From a virus: a stretch of 39,329 nt of DNA. The position numbers and the translations under genes are program-made. This document shows, piece after piece, positions 661-20,561 of the stretch. The stretch covers positions 1 through 39,329 of IMG/VR virus record IMGVR_UViG_3300046000_009440; one strand, given 5' to 3'. Position 1 is the stretch's first letter, and each line of letters begins with the position of its first letter. The notes under the pieces were generated by a model that saw nothing but the letters and a program-made list of their open reading frames with translations, had not been told where the DNA came from and did no database searches.

Positions 661-828
661 ATGACAGAAAAAAACAGCTTATATGATAGAGTATTTGATA
701 CTCTTGTTGAAAGACGTAATAGAATAGTATCAGGAAGAATAAATTGTATACCTTGGGGACTACCTAGATTTGAAGAAGAAAATCCAGGTATAGAACAAGG
801 TAAATATTATAATGTGACTGCAAATAGT
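661..828 (+). CDS. DnaB-like replicative helicase, exon 1
   Basis: First exon (56 codons) of a split SF4/DnaB-family helicase. ATG at 661 follows the upstream stop by 2 nt. The frame reads MTEKNSLYDRVFDTLVERRN and ends GKYYNVTANS, the first part of a Walker A loop. It then runs into intron sequence and stops at 840. The 5' splice site is placed after T828: exon bases 822-828 (AAATAGT) pair with the intron guide at 868-874 (GCTATTT), giving the usual U.G pair at the junction. Joining to 1872-1880 and 3648-4586 restores A-N-S-K-V-G-K-T, a correct [AG]xxxxGK[ST] motif, and a 371-residue protein. A TTG start at 637 would overlap the upstream gene and is not favoured. Confidence 0.88.
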
Positions 829-875
829 TATTATAAATAATATTATAAAATATTGCAGTTATTACTTGCTATTTT

Positions 876-911
876 AAAATAAATTTCGTATATTTGTATA
901 AAAATTATTTT
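876..911 (+). promoter_or_regulatory. Promoter-in-hairpin leader of the GIY-YIG gene
   Basis: TATATTTG at 889-896 matches the Bacteroidota -7 consensus TAnnTTTG, 16 nt before the ATG. Around it, 876-886 (AAAATAAATTT) can pair with 902-911 (AAATTATTTT) with one bulged A, placing a hairpin next to the start codon in any read-through transcript. A transcript starting ~7 nt after the box would lack the left arm. All pairs are A-T, so the hairpin is weaker than its two counterparts at 19100 and 20540. Confidence 0.5.
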
Positions 912-1631
912 ATGCAAACAATTACAAAAGAGTATTTTGAAAAATCAGGTATATACTGTATTTTAAATTTAGTAAATCAAAAGAAATACATTGGTAGTTC
1001 TAAAAATTTACAAGAACGATTAATTAATCACAAATGTCAATTATTAAAAAATAAACACGGTAATAAAATATTACAAAATTCTTGGAATAAGTATTCTAAA
1101 GATAATTTTATATATATTATATTGGAATATTGTGAAAAAGAAAAATTAATTGAAAGAGAACAATTTTATATTGACAATTTAAATCCAGAATTTAACATTG
1201 TAAAAGAGGTTTTACAACATAGTAGTTTTGGTAAAAAAATTCATCAATATGATTTAAATGGTTATTATATTAAAAGCTACAATTATATTGTTGATGCTTG
1301 TAAAGAAAACAATATACATCAATCTACAATTTGTAGATTTTTAAATGGTACATATAAAAAAGGTGGAAATTTTTTATGGTCTTTAGATTATGTAGAAAAA
1401 ATGAAACCTTATATGAAAAATTTAAAAAATAATGATTATATTAAAAAACAAGTAGAATTAATAGATTGTAATAATTTTGAAACAATAAAAACTTTTAACT
1501 CATTCAAAGAATGTGCTAAATATTTAAATTGTTATCAAAATGAAATTTCTAAAGGAATTAAAAATAATCGTAAATTTAAAAAGAAATATTTTATAAAATT
1601 AAAACAGGCTACGCTAAACAGCGATGTTTAG
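912..1631 (+). CDS. GIY-YIG intron homing endonuclease
   Basis: A 239-residue protein encoded inside intron 1, between P1 and the catalytic core. Residues ~12-100 form the GIY-YIG nuclease domain: GIYCILN, KKYIGSS, then an R...H pattern and a catalytic Glu region (LIEREQFYIDNLNPEFN). The C-terminal half has a NUMOD1-like DNA-binding unit (KIHQYDLNGYYIKSY ... STICRFLNG) and a second, similar helix-turn-helix-like stretch near the end. Such enzymes cut intronless alleles and spread the intron. ATG 912 is chosen over the in-frame TTG at 894 because the TTG lies inside the -7 promoter box. The gene ends in TAG, one of the few non-TAA stops here, and its 3' end runs into the intron core. Confidence 0.9.
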   Translation: MQTITKEYFEKSGIYCILNLVNQKKYIGSSKNLQERLINHKCQLLKNKHGNKILQNSWNKYSKDNFIYIILEYCEKEKLIEREQFYIDNLNPEFNIVKEVLQHSSFGKKIHQYDLNGYYIKSYNYIVDACKENNIHQSTICRFLNGTYKKGGNFLWSLDYVEKMKPYMKNLKNNDYIKKQVELIDCNNFETIKTFNSFKECAKYLNCYQNEISKGIKNNRKFKKKYFIKLKQATLNSDV

Positions 1632-1871
1632 ATGACAAGCTCTTTAATTGCTGGAACATCTGACCGTTAATGACGAAGACAATCAGCAGCGAAGCTCTTA
1701 TTTTAAGAGAACGTTCAACGACTAACCGTTTGCAGGTGTACACAATAAGTTTATGATTGTGGAAAAGGGAGCTACCTCAAGTAGGTAAAGATATAGTCTA
1801 TTCTATATGGAAACATATAGCAGTTCATAAGAGAACGTATATAAGAGTTGCGTCTTATATAGAATATCAAG

Positions 1872-1880
1872 AAAGTGGGT
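1872..1880 (+). CDS. DnaB-like helicase, 9-nt microexon 2
   Basis: AAA GTG GGT, encoding Lys-Val-Gly. It lies between G1871, the terminal G of intron 1, and intron 2. The last five bases (1876-1880, TGGGT) pair with GCCCA at 1888-1892 across a 7-nt loop, a clean P1 with U.G at the splice site. Without these codons the Walker A motif would read NS-KT and be broken; with them it reads A-N-S-K-V-G-K-T. The exon keeps the reading frame in phase 0 on both sides. Confidence 0.75.
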
Positions 1881-1953
1881 AAGTTTTGCCCAGCTAAGTA
1901 GTAATATTTAGATGTAAAAATAATAATTTTACAAATTAGAACAAAATAAAAAA

Positions 1954-2382
1954 ATGAAACAAAACGAACAAGAATTTATTTATGTTTCAGTACATGACGT
2001 TCCTTTAACTAATACAAGAAAAGCCTTAATTAGGTATTTCTTAAGAGGAAAGGCATATGCAACGTATTCAGACAAAGAATGCTTAATTGAACAATGTAAG
2101 CCAACAGCTAATAGAAGTATTACTGACTTATATAAAATAGTGTTATCTAGATTTCCAAACACATCTTTTGAATCTTTATTAAAGATTATTAAGGAATTTA
2201 TGGAAGAAGATAAATCTATTATACTAATATGGTGCAATGATATTTGCAAACCAGTAATTAAGTTTGTGGAAAATAAATCAGCGGCATGGATTAGTGATTT
2301 TAGTAAAAAAAACTATTATCATTCAAAAGGAGTTGATGGATATTCTTTGTACGACTATGAAGAAATAATGAATAAATTGTAA
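1954..2382 (+). CDS. Intron-nested protein, paralogue of the 3189 gene
   Basis: A 142-residue protein of unknown function between P1 and the core of intron 2. It shares the pattern TYSDKE-x(4)-QCK-x(2)-ANRS-x(2)-D-x-Y and a later (W/F)CxDIxKxVI stretch with the 151-residue protein at 3189, so the two are paralogues. Conserved Cys and charged residues could form a small metal or active site, but none of the LAGLIDADG, HNH, GIY-YIG or PD-(D/E)XK signatures is visible. The start is preceded by an A-rich leader. A hairpin, TGTAAAA (1913-1919) with TTTTACA (1927-1933), lies upstream and may be part of the intron fold. Confidence 0.75.
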   Translation: MKQNEQEFIYVSVHDVPLTNTRKALIRYFLRGKAYATYSDKECLIEQCKPTANRSITDLYKIVLSRFPNTSFESLLKIIKEFMEEDKSIILIWCNDICKPVIKFVENKSAAWISDFSKKNYYHSKGVDGYSLYDYEEIMNKL

Positions 2383-2564
2383 TTATTATTAAACTGGATG
2401 AAAACGGTGAAACTCATTGAAAGATGACAATACCGTGCCAAGCTTCAGGGAAGACTGATGAAGGTGTAACGACTAGGGAGATTACGATCAGCCCACAGCG
2501 TCCAGCATCCTTATAGGATGATGATATAGTCTAGACTATAAATATAAATATTAAATTTAGAAAA

Positions 2565-3164
2565 ATGAAAAAAATTTGCAAAAACGCTAAAAACTACAAA
2601 CTAACAGAAGGGTTAGAATACGAAATACTAAAGGAAGAAGATGGGTACATTTTCCTGATAAATGATTCAGGTAAAAATGTAAAATACGATGCTTCTTTAT
2701 TTGAAGAACATGTAGAGCCAGTTCAAGCACCAGCAAGAACAGAACAAGATTGTATTAATTCTATTCATTATAATGGATCAGTATTAAAATATACTGATTT
2801 ATCAAATGAAGAAAAAACAGTAAATGTTTCATTATACAAAAATTCTAACAATGATTTTTCTTGTGGAATAGTTAGATTTGAAGGGATAAACAATCTTTGT
2901 GATGTTATTGATAGTAGTTATTTTGTTTCAAGTGAAGAAGATGATTTAATAGAACTAAAAAAAGCTTTATTTAGCACTGTTCTTAATCATGCAATATCTA
3001 GTGATAATTTAAAAGGAATGTGGATGTGTTCAACCAACAGAGATGTTGCTAATGAAGATTTTCATAATCTTTTAAATGAAGTATGTGATCACAATAGTGG
3101 ATGGTTTAGAAATCCAAATTCTGGAAATGAAATAAAACTTTGGTATGGTATTATAAACCAATAA
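2565..3164 (+). CDS. Hypothetical phage protein nested in intron 2
   Basis: A 199-residue acidic protein starting just after the intron 2 core, between the two paralogous ORFs. Residues ~10-50 (YKLTEGLEYEILKEEDGYIF ... YDASLFEE) have the strand-rich look of a small SH3-like barrel that I associate with phage accessory proteins. The C-terminal part (GMWMCSTNRD ... SGWFRNPNSG) is not recognised. No nuclease motif, signal peptide or membrane segment is seen. It looks like an ordinary phage gene that now sits in an intron rather than a mobility gene. Confidence 0.75.
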   Translation: MKKICKNAKNYKLTEGLEYEILKEEDGYIFLINDSGKNVKYDASLFEEHVEPVQAPARTEQDCINSIHYNGSVLKYTDLSNEEKTVNVSLYKNSNNDFSCGIVRFEGINNLCDVIDSSYFVSSEEDDLIELKKALFSTVLNHAISSDNLKGMWMCSTNRDVANEDFHNLLNEVCDHNSGWFRNPNSGNEIKLWYGIINQ

Positions 3165-3188
3165 TTAAATTTAATTATAAATTATAGA

Positions 3189-3644
3189 ATGCAAAAATTA
3201 TACGTAAACATAGAAAAGAAGAAGGGAGAAAGGATAACTACGTTTTTATCAAAATGTTATCGTATCGGATGTTATAATGTTGGATTTTTAAAAACATATT
3301 CAGATAAAGAATTAACTCAATTTCAATGTAAAGACTCTGCAAATAGAAGTGTAGAGGATATTTACAGTGTTGTTAAAGCTTATTATCCAAGATGTTCTGA
3401 AAAGCACTTCATGAAACAGTTATCTAAAGTATTAGATAAAAATAAAAGGTTAAAACTTTTATTTTGTCCAGATATTGATAAATGGGTCATAATTTATGGT
3501 TACAATGTTATTGATTGTTTAGGTGTTAGATACTTATACAATTATTCAGGGTCCGCTCTTAAAACAAACAATAGAGGGAAAGGAAAATATTGTTACAATG
3601 ACTTAATGATTCTAATGGATCATGATACATATAAATTGCATTAA
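3189..3644 (+). CDS. Intron-nested protein, paralogue of the 1954 gene
   Basis: A 151-residue basic protein whose TAA (3642-3644) lies 3 nt before the 3' end of intron 2. It shares TYSDKE...QCKxxANRS and the following D-x-Y and C-x-D-I-x-K patterns with the 142-residue protein at 1954, and adds an N-terminal KKKGERITTFLSKCYRIGCY segment. Function is unknown. Having two copies in one intron, flanking an unrelated gene, suggests duplication within the intron or stepwise insertion. Confidence 0.75.
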   Translation: MQKLYVNIEKKKGERITTFLSKCYRIGCYNVGFLKTYSDKELTQFQCKDSANRSVEDIYSVVKAYYPRCSEKHFMKQLSKVLDKNKRLKLLFCPDIDKWVIIYGYNVIDCLGVRYLYNYSGSALKTNNRGKGKYCYNDLMILMDHDTYKLH

Positions 3645-3647
3645 AAG

Positions 3648-4586
3648 AAAACACAAATTGCAGATCATTTATTTTTATACAATACTGTACAACAAATTTT
3701 AGATAACAATCTAGATATTAAACTAAAAATATTTTATTTCACTTTAGAGATGTCTAAAGAAGAAAAAATGCTATCAGCATTCTCTAATATACTATATATT
3801 AAAGAAGGTATAAGATTGAGTCCAACTCAATTAAAAAGTACTAAAGCTGATAACGTTTTACCTGAAGAAATATTAAATGTGATAGAAAAATATAAAGATT
3901 ATTTTAATAAAATTGAAGAGATTGTAGAATTTATTGATGATATTAGAAATCCTTACGGAATTTATAATTTTGTAAGAAAATATGCTTTAGCTAATGGAAA
4001 ACTTCATTATAGAACAATAATGATAGAAGGAAAAGAAGTTAAAGTAGAAGATTATTATGAACCAAATAATCCAGAAGAATATGTAATAATAATGATAGAT
4101 CATATCGGACTAATAAGTCCTGAGAAGAATTATGATACTGGGATACCAATGACATTACATGAATCTATAGGTAAATTAAGTTCAGATTATCTTATTAAAT
4201 TACGAAACAGGTTTAAGTACATACCTGTAGTCATACAACAGCAAGCTGCTGCTCAAGAATCTATTGAAAATAAAAAATATAATAAACTAAAGCCTACTTT
4301 AGACGGGTTAGCTGGGAATAAGGAAACACAACGTGATGCCAATGTTGTTGTTGGTTTGTTTAGTCCATTCAGACATGAAATACCAGATTATCTAGGGTAT
4401 GATATTACATTTTTTAAGGACAATATAAGATTCTTTGAGATCCTAGGAGGAAGAGAGGGTGGTGCTGGAACAATCTGTCCACTGTACTTTGATGGAGCTG
4501 TAAATTATTTTAAAGAATTGCCTAAGCCAGACGATAGCGAAGGTATAGTTAAAGTTAAAAACTTTATAAATAGTATTAGAAAATAA
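3648..4586 (+). CDS. DnaB-like replicative helicase, exon 3
   Basis: The main exon (312 codons plus TAA). It opens with KTQIADHLFLYN, the second half of Walker A, and continues to the DnaB-typical IFYFTLEMS (motif H1a). Walker B is YVIIMIDHIGLIS (Asp at about 210 of the joined protein). A Gln-rich sensor-like stretch (VVIQQQAAAQE), the LDGLAGNKETQRDANVVVGL segment and a GGREGGAG loop near the C terminus match the SF4 layout. The enzyme would unwind DNA 5'-3' as a hexamer at the phage fork. The frame is open from 3648 without interruption, so the first in-frame ATG at 3750 is not the real start. The joined protein is 371 residues, shorter than bacterial DnaB because it lacks the usual N-terminal domain. 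Confidence 0.88.
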   Translation, partial: KTQIADHLFLYNTVQQILDNNLDIKLKIFYFTLEMSKEEKMLSAFSNILYIKEGIRLSPTQLKSTKADNVLPEEILNVIEKYKDYFNKIEEIVEFIDDIRNPYGIYNFVRKYALANGKLHYRTIMIEGKEVKVEDYYEPNNPEEYVIIMIDHIGLISPEKNYDTGIPMTLHESIGKLSSDYLIKLRNRFKYIPVVIQQQAAAQESIENKKYNKLKPTLDGLAGNKETQRDANVVVGLFSPFRHEIPDYLGYDITFFKDNIRFFEILGGREGGAGTICPLYFDGAVNYFKELPKPDDSEGIVKVKNFINSIRK

Positions 4587-6365: not shown

Positions 6366-6436
6366 GGTCGGGTGGTGTGTTTGGTAAACACAACTAGTTT
6401 TTAGGAGGGTAGCAAGTTCGATTCTTGCCCTGACCA
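6366..6436 (+). tRNA. tRNA-like gene with non-canonical anticodon arm
   Basis: Acceptor GGTCGGG (6366-6372) pairs with CCTGACC (6429-6435) with one G.U; the discriminator is A6436. The D arm GTGT-GTTTGGTAA-ACAC (6375-6391) and the T arm GCAAG-TTCGATT-CTTGC (6412-6428) are textbook. Between them are only 20 nt (6392-6411) instead of 22-23, and they do not fold into a 5-bp anticodon stem; the best is CTA-GTTTT-TAG. TTT (Lys) or TAG (Leu) could be read as an anticodon, but neither is supported by a stem. It lacks an encoded CCA. Confidence 0.55.
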
Positions 6437-17787: not shown

Positions 17788-18768
17788 ATGCAATTAGATA
17801 AAAAAATATTAAGTGACATTACGGTATATTCAAAATATGCTAAACATTTACCTGAGTTAGAAAGAAGAGAAACTTGGGAAGAACTGGTTGAAAGGAATAT
17901 GCAAATGCATATGAAAAAACATCCAATAGTTGAAAATGACATTAAAGCTATTTATGATGATTTTGTTTTGACTAAAAAGATTTTACCATCAATGAGAAGT
18001 TTGCAATTTGGAGGTAGAGCAATAGAAATGAATAATAGTAGAATTTATAATTGTGCTTTTTTACCAATTGATGATATTCGTAGTTTTAGTGAAACTATGT
18101 TTTTATTGTTAGGCGGAACAGGCGTAGGCTATAGTGTTCAAAATCATCATATTGACAAATTGCCTGAAATTAGAAAACCTAATTTTGATCGTAAAAGAAA
18201 ATACGTAGTTCAAGATTCAATCATAGGTTGGGCTGATGCGGTAAAGGTATTATTTAAGTCTTATACTTCTGGCGGTAATCATATTGAGTTTGATTTATCA
18301 GACATTAGACATAAAGGTGCTTTATTAGTAACGGCTGGTGGTAAAGCGCCAGGACCTGAGCCTTTAAGAATTGCTTTAGTTAAAATTGAAGCAATACTTC
18401 GTGAAAAAGAAGACGGAGTAAAACTTACAGATATTGAGTGTCATGATATTCAATGTCATATTGCTGATGCAGTATTGGCTGGTGGTATTAGACGTGCAGC
18501 AATGATTAGTTTATTTGATTTAGATAGTGATGCAATGTTGAACTGTAAAGCCGGCAACTGGTGGGAAAACAATCCACAAAGAGGTCGTGCAAACAATTCA
18601 GTAACATTGTTACGTCATAAAATAGACAAAAAAACATTTGATAAAGTATGGGAGCGTATTGAAGCTTCAGGATCAGGAGAGCCAGGAATCTACCTTACTA
18701 ATGATAGAGATTGGGGCACTAATCCTTGTTGTGAGATTGCGTTACGTCCTTATCAATTCTGTAACCTT
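17788..18768 (+). CDS. nrdJ: Class II (B12-dependent) ribonucleotide reductase, exon 1
   Basis: The first 327 codons of a monomeric adenosylcobalamin-dependent ribonucleotide reductase of the Lactobacillus RTPR type. Cys89 (RIYNCAFLP) corresponds to the first redox Cys. The end of the exon reads NPCCEIALRPYQFCNL, giving Asn312, radical Cys314, Glu316 and redox Cys325. The spacing equals that of N406, C408, E410 and C419 in the L. leichmannii enzyme. GGTGVGYSVQN and AGGIRRAAMISLFD are also typical. The exon ends after CTT at T18768: AACCTT (18763-18768) pairs with the intron guide GAGGTT (18779-18784). CGT and CGC Arg codons are more frequent than in neighbouring genes, a hint of foreign origin. 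Confidence 0.93.
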
Positions 18769-18821
18769 TAATTTCTAGGAGGTTGTAAAAGACAGAGAAT
18801 TGCTGGGATATCTAAGTATAA

Positions 18822-18914
18822 TATATAGTCCTATAACAGGTGTAATAGTCAAAAACAAGTCAGGAAAATTATTGAAATCCTGATTAAAATAAGGTTCGAG
18901 TCCTTATTATATAT
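18822..18914 (+). tRNA. tRNA-like fold inside the P5 loop of intron 3
   Basis: The acceptor TATATAG (18822-18828) pairs with TTATATA (18907-18913) with one G.U. Next come TC, a D arm CTAT-AACAGGTGTA-ATAG (18831-18848, with GG in the loop) and a perfect T arm TAAGG-TTCGAGT-CCTTA (18890-18906). Between D and T arms are 41 nt with a hairpin TCAGGA...TCCTGA around a 12-nt loop, so the anticodon domain is not canonical. It may be a captured tRNA that has become part of the intron, or a coincidental elaboration of P5. Function in translation is unlikely. Confidence 0.4.
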
Positions 18915-19099
18915 TATATATGACAATCAGCAGCCGAGCCCTACAAGGGAAGGTTCAGAGACTATCCGTAAGGAGTACACTCAAGTGAGTGGAAGCACTG
19001 TCATCTACACAGTAGATATGATATAGTCCGAACTGCATAGAAATATGCAGATGGGTAAAATTTAACAATAATTTAACATTAAAAATTAGGAATCTTAAA

Positions 19100-19140
19100 T
19101 TGAATTTTGTATATTTGTATTATTACAAAATTCAAAATAT
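19100..19140 (+). promoter_or_regulatory. Promoter-in-hairpin leader of the intron 3 HNH gene
   Basis: TATATTTG (19110-19117) matches the Bacteroidota -7 box. A perfect 12-bp inverted repeat surrounds it: TTGAATTTTGTA (19100-19111) with TACAAAATTCAA (19124-19135), ending 5 nt before the ATG. In read-through pre-mRNA this hairpin would cover the start region. A transcript started by this promoter, at about 19124, would lack the left arm and leave the start free. Confidence 0.65.
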
Positions 19141-19602
19141 ATGCAAGAACTAATTAAAAACAGAGAAGGTAATTTAGTATCAACTACACATAGAGAATGT
19201 TCTAATTCAAAATGTGATATAATATTTAAAATAACTTCAAAAACTGTAACTTTATGTCCAAAATGTAACTCAGAAAGAGTTAAAAGTATTAATCCTATAA
19301 AAAGAATGCTTGCTAGAGCTAAATCTAGAAGTAAAACTAGAAATCACGAATTCAATATTGAATTTGAAGATATTATAGTGCCAGAATATTGTCCAATTCT
19401 AAATATAAAATTAGAATATAATAGTGGAAGAGCTGGTGGTGAAAGTAATTCACCTTCTTTAGATAGAATAGATAATACAAAAGGATATGTTAAAGGAAAT
19501 GTTATTGTTATTAGTCAATTAGCAAATTGTATGAAAAGTAGTTCTTCACCTGAAGAATTAAAACAGTTTGCAAAATGGATTAATAAAGAATTCCCTGATT
19601 AA
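19141..19602 (+). CDS. HNH homing endonuclease in intron 3
   Basis: A 153-residue protein with two N-terminal Cys pairs (HRECSNSKC and TLCPKCNS), likely a zinc ribbon, followed by an HNH-type core: VPEYCPILNIKL, SPSLDRIDNTKGYVKGNVIV and ISQLANCMKSSSSPEELKQF. This is the layout of small phage HNH enzymes that nick intronless targets and spread their intron. It lies after the ribozyme core and ends 27 nt before the 3' splice site. It has its own promoter-like leader, so it can be expressed apart from the reductase. Confidence 0.88.
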   Translation: MQELIKNREGNLVSTTHRECSNSKCDIIFKITSKTVTLCPKCNSERVKSINPIKRMLARAKSRSKTRNHEFNIEFEDIIVPEYCPILNIKLEYNSGRAGGESNSPSLDRIDNTKGYVKGNVIVISQLANCMKSSSSPEELKQFAKWINKEFPD

Positions 19603-19629
19603 GTTTAACGAACTTAATTGAACAAAATG

Positions 19630-20530: not shown

Positions 20531-20561
20531 ATTTTTCGTATATTTGTAAAAAACAAATATT
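20531..20561 (+). promoter_or_regulatory. Promoter-in-hairpin leader of the free-standing HNH gene
   Basis: The stretch ATTTTTCG and then TATATTTG (20539-20546) nearly repeats the leader of the GIY-YIG gene. The box is itself the left arm of a perfect 8-bp inverted repeat, ATATTTGT (20540-20547) and ACAAATAT (20553-20560) with an A5 loop, ending 1 nt before the ATG. Read-through mRNA could hide the start; promoter-derived mRNA could not form the stem. Confidence 0.6.

Follow-up and report, generated by a model that had tools for sequence, protein, structure and literature searches.

A recurrent 9-nt exon between two predicted group I introns in the Walker A motif of a crAss-like phage helicase

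Mini-exons lying between introns, down to 3 nt or even 1 nt in length, are described for mitochondrial genes in passages of several papers (PMC8971849, PMC10352661, PMC12308204). The phage locus considered here resembles these cases in that a tiny coding exon lies between adjacent self-splicing introns (here predicted ones) of a conserved gene. The mitochondrial examples, however, are organellar, whereas the present arrangement is found in phages, where it is repeated at nine distinct loci, each time with an exon of 9 nt in the Walker A motif. Bacillus phages offer another parallel, since passages of PMC11878797 describe neighboring group I introns in the ribonucleotide reductase gene of phiNIT1, the TerL gene of SIOphi, and orf142 of Twort. 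The exon between them is small or can be skipped, with skipping described for SIOphi TerL and Twort orf142, and skipping is conceivable here too. Compared to those exons, the one described below is 9 nt long, preserves the frame, and is known from sequence alone.

Intron-rich crAss-like phages have been described as well, and they share the virus order and the kind of intron with the phage studied here (passages of PMC7886860). The introns in those passages were recognized by their endonuclease domains, which are lacking in the second of the two introns reported here, and the passages on intron-rich crAss-like phages make no mention of helicase P-loop sites or of a microexon. The P-loop of DnaB is, in addition, a known target of inteins, as stated in part of PMC6195587. 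Mobile elements enter the same conserved ATPase motif in both cases, but inteins are removed by protein splicing, and the present elements would be removed at the level of RNA.

The DNA analyzed (the window) is a stretch of 39,329 nucleotides, a 39-kb fragment of a crAss-like phage, and the kin found through its helicase include members of the Steigviridae (crAss001, cr111_1, and Cellulophaga phage phi14:2). Its replicative helicase is encoded in three exons that, when concatenated, give a single 371-aa frame (Table 1). The joined protein passes the Pfam DnaB_C model and contains a Walker A motif, A-N-S-K-V-G-K-T, in which the first position is A instead of G, as it is in crAss001 (ANQKVGKS). 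A first-pass annotation had proposed that a microexon between two group I introns completes this motif, and the comparison with the DnaB-like helicase family PHROG_19 bears this out, with a score of 55.5 bits when the three codons are included and 35.2 when they are left out. The junction between exon 1 and the microexon has zero sliding room given its flanking bases. The junction between the microexon and exon 3 could slide by up to 2 nt by sequence alone, but the U.G / omega-G rule fixes it at 1880/3647.

One could also consider 829-3647 to be a single composite intron (a twintron) without any middle exon, so that the S of the helicase is joined directly to K-T. The frame survives if the nine bases are skipped, and SIOphi TerL and Twort orf142 provide known cases of an exon skipped between group I introns (passages of PMC11878797). 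However, a protein without K-V-G drops 20 bits against the DnaB-like family, and the relatives speak clearly. In a comparison set of 78 distinct loci from crAss-like phages, 46 are intronless; there, the P-loop is read straight through, with exactly 9 nt at the same spot, coding for K-V-G or a close variant. Another 19 loci have only the downstream intron (site B, after AAAGTGGGT), and in these, the nine bases are fused to exon 1. Direct joining of 828 to 3648 is rejected on account of these two groups of relatives, which leaves the twintron scarcely credible.

Introns at both sites (A+B) occur at nine of the 78 loci, including the window, and the 9-nt exon is kept in every one of them as AAAGTGGGT, AAAGTTGGT, AAAGTAGGT, or AAAATTGGT. 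With at least eight other phages sharing it, the arrangement is real and cannot be put down to chance in the window sequence, and finding the same architecture on independent contigs is a strong argument against misassembly. By comparison of the loci, then, the exon boundaries and their recurrence are established, and the 9-nt exon is real. The last four loci (L042, L064, L075, which is cr111_1, and L088) have an intron after the fifth base of the nine (site C, following AAGGT), so three intron sites share nine P-loop bases. The upstream (site A) intron was found alone at none of the 78 loci. When viral contigs were scanned for the joined exon sequence as a sign of cDNA, only diverged intronless phages were returned.

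Table 1. Coordinates of the helicase exons, the two predicted group I introns, and the features within them (window positions)
Feature	Position	Strand	Details
Helicase exon 1	661..828	+	56 codons, end ...V-T-A-N-S
Group I intron 1 (site A)	829..1871	+	1043 nt; RF00028 88.5 bits at 1582-1820
Promoter-like box TATATTTG	889..896	+	before the GIY-YIG gene; repeated before ORFs 19141 and 20562
GIY-YIG homing endonuclease ORF (NUMOD1) in intron 1	912..1631	+	GIY-YIG 7.9e-12; stop codon in P2
Intron 1 conserved internal guide GCUACG	1608..1613	+	pairs with UAGU of exon 1
Intron 1 P2 hairpin	1614..1631	+	covariation
Intron 1 core	1637..1861	+	P3 1637-1643/1767-1773, P4 1647-1654/1682-1690, P6 1691-1715
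Intron 1 core, continued		+	P7 1720-1724/1794-1798, P8 1772-1785, P9 1803-1820, 3' hairpin 1838-1861
Microexon AAAGTGGGT	1872..1880	+	AAA GTG GGT = K-V-G, Walker A
Group I intron 2 (site B)	1881..3647	+	1767 nt; RF00028 68.8 bits at 2339-2555
Intron 2 P10 UUUU	1884..1887	+	pairs with AAAA 3648-3651; at least AAA/UUU in 28/28 site-B introns
Intron 2 internal guide GCCCA	1888..1892	+	pairs with UGGGU 1876-1880
Intron 2 P2 hairpin	1894..1911	+	
Gene 1a, between P2 and P3 of intron 2	1954..2382	+	orthologues upstream of the helicase in intronless relatives
Intron 2 core P3-P8/P7	2394..2531	+	within the gap between genes 1a and 12
Gene 12 in intron 2	2565..3164	+	homologue immediately before the helicase in L028, L035, L055
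Gene 1b in intron 2	3189..3644	+	distantly paralogous to 1a; 3 nt separate its stop codon from the 3' splice site
Helicase exon 3 (K-T-Q-I-A-D...)	3648..4586	+	312 codons plus stop

The two introns appear to be group I introns of similar layout, in which a guide is followed at once by the P2 hairpin, and they would have entered the Walker A codons at two points separated by 9 nt. Each 5' junction would be set by the intron's own guide beside P2, GCUACG acting on UAGU in intron 1 and GCCCA on UGGGU in intron 2. Intron 1 contains the conserved catalytic core (P3-P8/P7). Its P2, P3, P5, P6, and P8 covary, and 26 of the 65 predicted pairs survive two-sided changes in an alignment of seven site-A introns. 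A compact, endonuclease-free relative whose core contains no genes (intron A of L040) matches cleanly across the whole RF00028 model, at 99.5 bits. In every site-A intron examined, including the one in the window, the guide lies directly 5' of P2. Eight of the nine have GCUACG as the guide; the ninth, L102, has GCUGCG, and its exon carries the compensatory CAGU for UAGU, to go with GCUG for GCUA. Conservation and covariation of the guide are thus evident from the aligned introns. A U.G pair stands at the 5' splice site of intron 1, and the last base is G in all nine site-A introns.

The P1 that the conserved guide forms in the window is only 4 bp long, with a loop of about 780 nt. A conserved P10 was sought among the site-A introns with the conserved guide, and none was found; group I introns are not known to require a P10. 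The first-pass annotation had used a different pairing for intron 1, GCTATTT at 868-874 for P1 with ACTT at 864-867 for P10, and held that P1 and P10 place all four junctions independently. Both pairings are present in the window, adjacent to each other, and the 7-bp P1 is longer than that of the conserved guide. In shuffled introns, a 7-bp P1 plus a 4-bp P10 arises in 0.8% of cases in the first 70 nt and in 3.4% over the whole intron; the pairing is therefore somewhat unlikely by chance, and a role specific to this lineage is possible. For example, it could be a replacement guide, taken up once the P1 loop had received the endonuclease gene. However, none of the other site-A introns examined has these pairings, and the guide at 1608-1613 is preserved in the window, with a covarying counterpart in L102. 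The element also lies about 15 nt upstream of the TATATTTG box, copies of which stand ahead of two other endonuclease ORFs, so it may be no more than the promoter region of the endonuclease gene. On the grounds of conservation, 868-874 was set aside as the guide of intron 1, and such a replacement in the window is judged unlikely, though not negligibly so.

The claim about the junctions is thus supported for intron 2, whose scheme is conserved in 28 introns, and not supported for intron 1. The related proposal, that the microexon is the P10 partner of intron 1 while also the P1 substrate of intron 2, is weakened in its first half; with no P10 shared by the site-A introns that have the conserved guide, nothing obliges the microexon to take part in both pairings simultaneously.

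The guide and P2 of intron 1 (1608-1631) are also part of the GIY-YIG reading frame, the translation of which should therefore compete with intron 1 splicing. The box in front of this ORF matches the Bacteroidetes TAnnTTTG box. Boxes containing TATATTTG also occur at about 19110-19117 and 20539-20546, where they precede both HNH-type ORFs, and the endonucleases of the window seem, from these repeats, to have a common promoter of their own. One of these ORFs (19141-19602) lies in a ribonucleotide reductase gene that is split by a third group I intron at 18759-19629 (RF00028, 61.1 bits), an intron missed by the full-window scan at default settings. A tRNA-like match is also present at 6366-6436 (Rfam, 37.2 bits), though ARAGORN did not find it.

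Between the window and L001, dN/dS is about 0.09 for exon 1 and about 0.07 for exon 3, the latter with a dS of about 1, values that point to purifying selection on the helicase exons. The possibility that the locus is decaying, with introns that no longer splice and another gene in place of the helicase, is hard to reconcile with this constraint in both exons and with core helices that are intact, and it can be given next to no weight.

Despite the divergence in exon 3, the intron 1 cores of the window and L001 are 99.2% identical over 265 nt, which demonstrates, at the level of sequence, that intron 1 moved recently between these phages. The endonuclease genes in these two introns are not alike in length or sequence. 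Intron 1 would thus be a recently mobile GIY-YIG element, and it is absent from L007, where AATAGTAAAGTGGGT runs directly into intron 2; the exon 3 protein of L007 is 98% identical to that of L001, which has intron 1. On the helicase tree, the A+B state takes six changes, and the well-supported branches make four of these unavoidable. All nine site-A introns are in genes that also have a site-B intron (hypergeometric 6e-5, kinship ignored). The Val codon is GTG, which suits the intron 2 guide, at 17 of 21 site-B loci versus one of 30 intronless ones (kinship again ignored). One reading of the co-occurrence of the two introns is that the site-B intron fixes codons that the intron 1 endonuclease may need. 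We infer that intron 2 came before intron 1, which would have been gained in lineages already holding intron 2.

Intron 2 is the commoner of the two, mostly without an endonuclease. It has the catalytic core, a P1 with U.G, a P10, and a terminal G, and its pairing scheme is kept in all 28 site-B introns examined, although P1 is weak, with only 3 contiguous pairs, in L045, L047, L050, L122, and L123. The proposal that the microexon is the P1 substrate of intron 2 (UGGGU/GCCCA) gains from L017 and L079, which have the compensatory pair UUGGU/GCCAA. The compact site-B intron of L019, with no genes in its core, matches the whole RF00028 model cleanly at 67 bits. Searches for endonuclease family matches to the intron 2 ORFs at 1954, 2565, and 3189 gave none; the intron of L044 contains a LAGLIDADG gene. 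In one branch (L038, L040, L043, and L049), translation of a zinc-ribbon-like ORF seems to continue across the intron 2 P7 motif GTAGAGACTA, an overlap of coding and ribozyme sequence. The cultured Cellulophaga phage phi14:2 (L059; KC821624.1, about 13.1-15.8 kb) has an unannotated site-B helicase intron enclosing several hypothetical genes. An Rfam search of this intron gave zero matches, perhaps because genes split its core.

What intron 2 encloses in the window are genes that are found beside the helicase in relatives. In intronless phages, homologues of 1a, 12, and 1b immediately precede the uninterrupted helicase gene (the loci compared were L011, L028, L035, L055, and L003), and in L011 these families follow one another as they do in the window. 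About 15 intronless relatives have an orthologue of gene 1a, 46-53% identical, upstream of an unsplit helicase, and a member of family 12, gp039, is inside the site-B intron of phi14:2. The gene order in L011 is 2-29-1a-12-1b-helicase-6-1-3, and in the window, it is 2-exon1-[intron 1]-1a-core-12-1b-exon3-3-4. Gene 1b is matched by family and position, with low pairwise similarity to intronless copies (about 31% in L024); its predicted fold is confident (pLDDT 88), and that fold yielded only weak, nonsignificant matches to winged-helix-like proteins, plus one phi14:2 protein. In another branch, families 6 and 13 are inside the site-B intron, and in intronless relatives, they are just downstream of the helicase.

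This arrangement could have come from capture of the neighboring genes by the intron or from their release by intron loss; either is allowed. In crAss001, family 2 directly precedes the helicase and a different ATPase family follows it, which suggests that the genes came later, whether beside the helicase or into the intron. Four core-motif patterns were used to look for ribozyme relics beside intronless helicases, and none was found at any intronless locus. Intron 2 could also be viewed as a mosaic of ribozyme segments and helicase neighbor genes in alternation (P1-P2, 1a, core, 12, 1b, 3' end). One transcript would then yield either the helicase, when spliced, or the enclosed proteins, when unspliced, and the 9-nt exon, which could be skipped in frame, would add another switch on helicase activity. 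This view is offered as a tentative one that is probably wrong.

From these features, we infer that both introns splice, and that they do so sequentially, since there is scarcely room for two ribozymes on the same nine bases. The guide of intron 1 pairs with 4 bases of exon 1 and 3 of the microexon, and that of intron 2 with 5 of the microexon and 2 of exon 1. Given this poor cross-recognition, the introns would be removed singly and probably in either order, and the product would be an intact helicase with A-N-S-K-V-G-K-T. A real microexon could still be skipped in a sizeable fraction of transcripts. The frame would be kept, and the product would be a helicase lacking K-V-G and with it a functional P-loop. 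Such a protein could poison the hexamer, and the splicing choice would then act as a regulator. The 9-nt length, the AAA with which the 3' exons of both introns begin, and the phage precedents for skipping (passages of PMC11878797) fit this possibility, but the poor cross-recognition of the guides does not, and regulation of this sort is considered quite improbable. The account as a whole, of two introns 9 nt apart that use their own guides and are removed one at a time, with intron 1 a recent arrival and intron 2 now a container for genes that lie beside the helicase in relatives, is very probably correct.

Three features appear to be new in the searchable literature: a recurrent 9-nt exon in a phage helicase Walker A motif, the crowding of three insertion sites into nine bases, and an intron holding genes that are neighbors of the helicase elsewhere. 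A single 9-nt stretch of an essential ATPase motif is the site of three separate introns, and intron 2 shows that an intron can hold ordinary phage genes in place of an endonuclease. There is also a warning for annotation, since a helicase called from exon 3 alone misses Walker A. The phages amount to a natural, repeated test of two ribozymes sharing a 9-nt exon, in which relatives provide the states with no intron, site B only, A+B, and a third site, and one of them, Cellulophaga phage phi14:2 (site B), is in culture.
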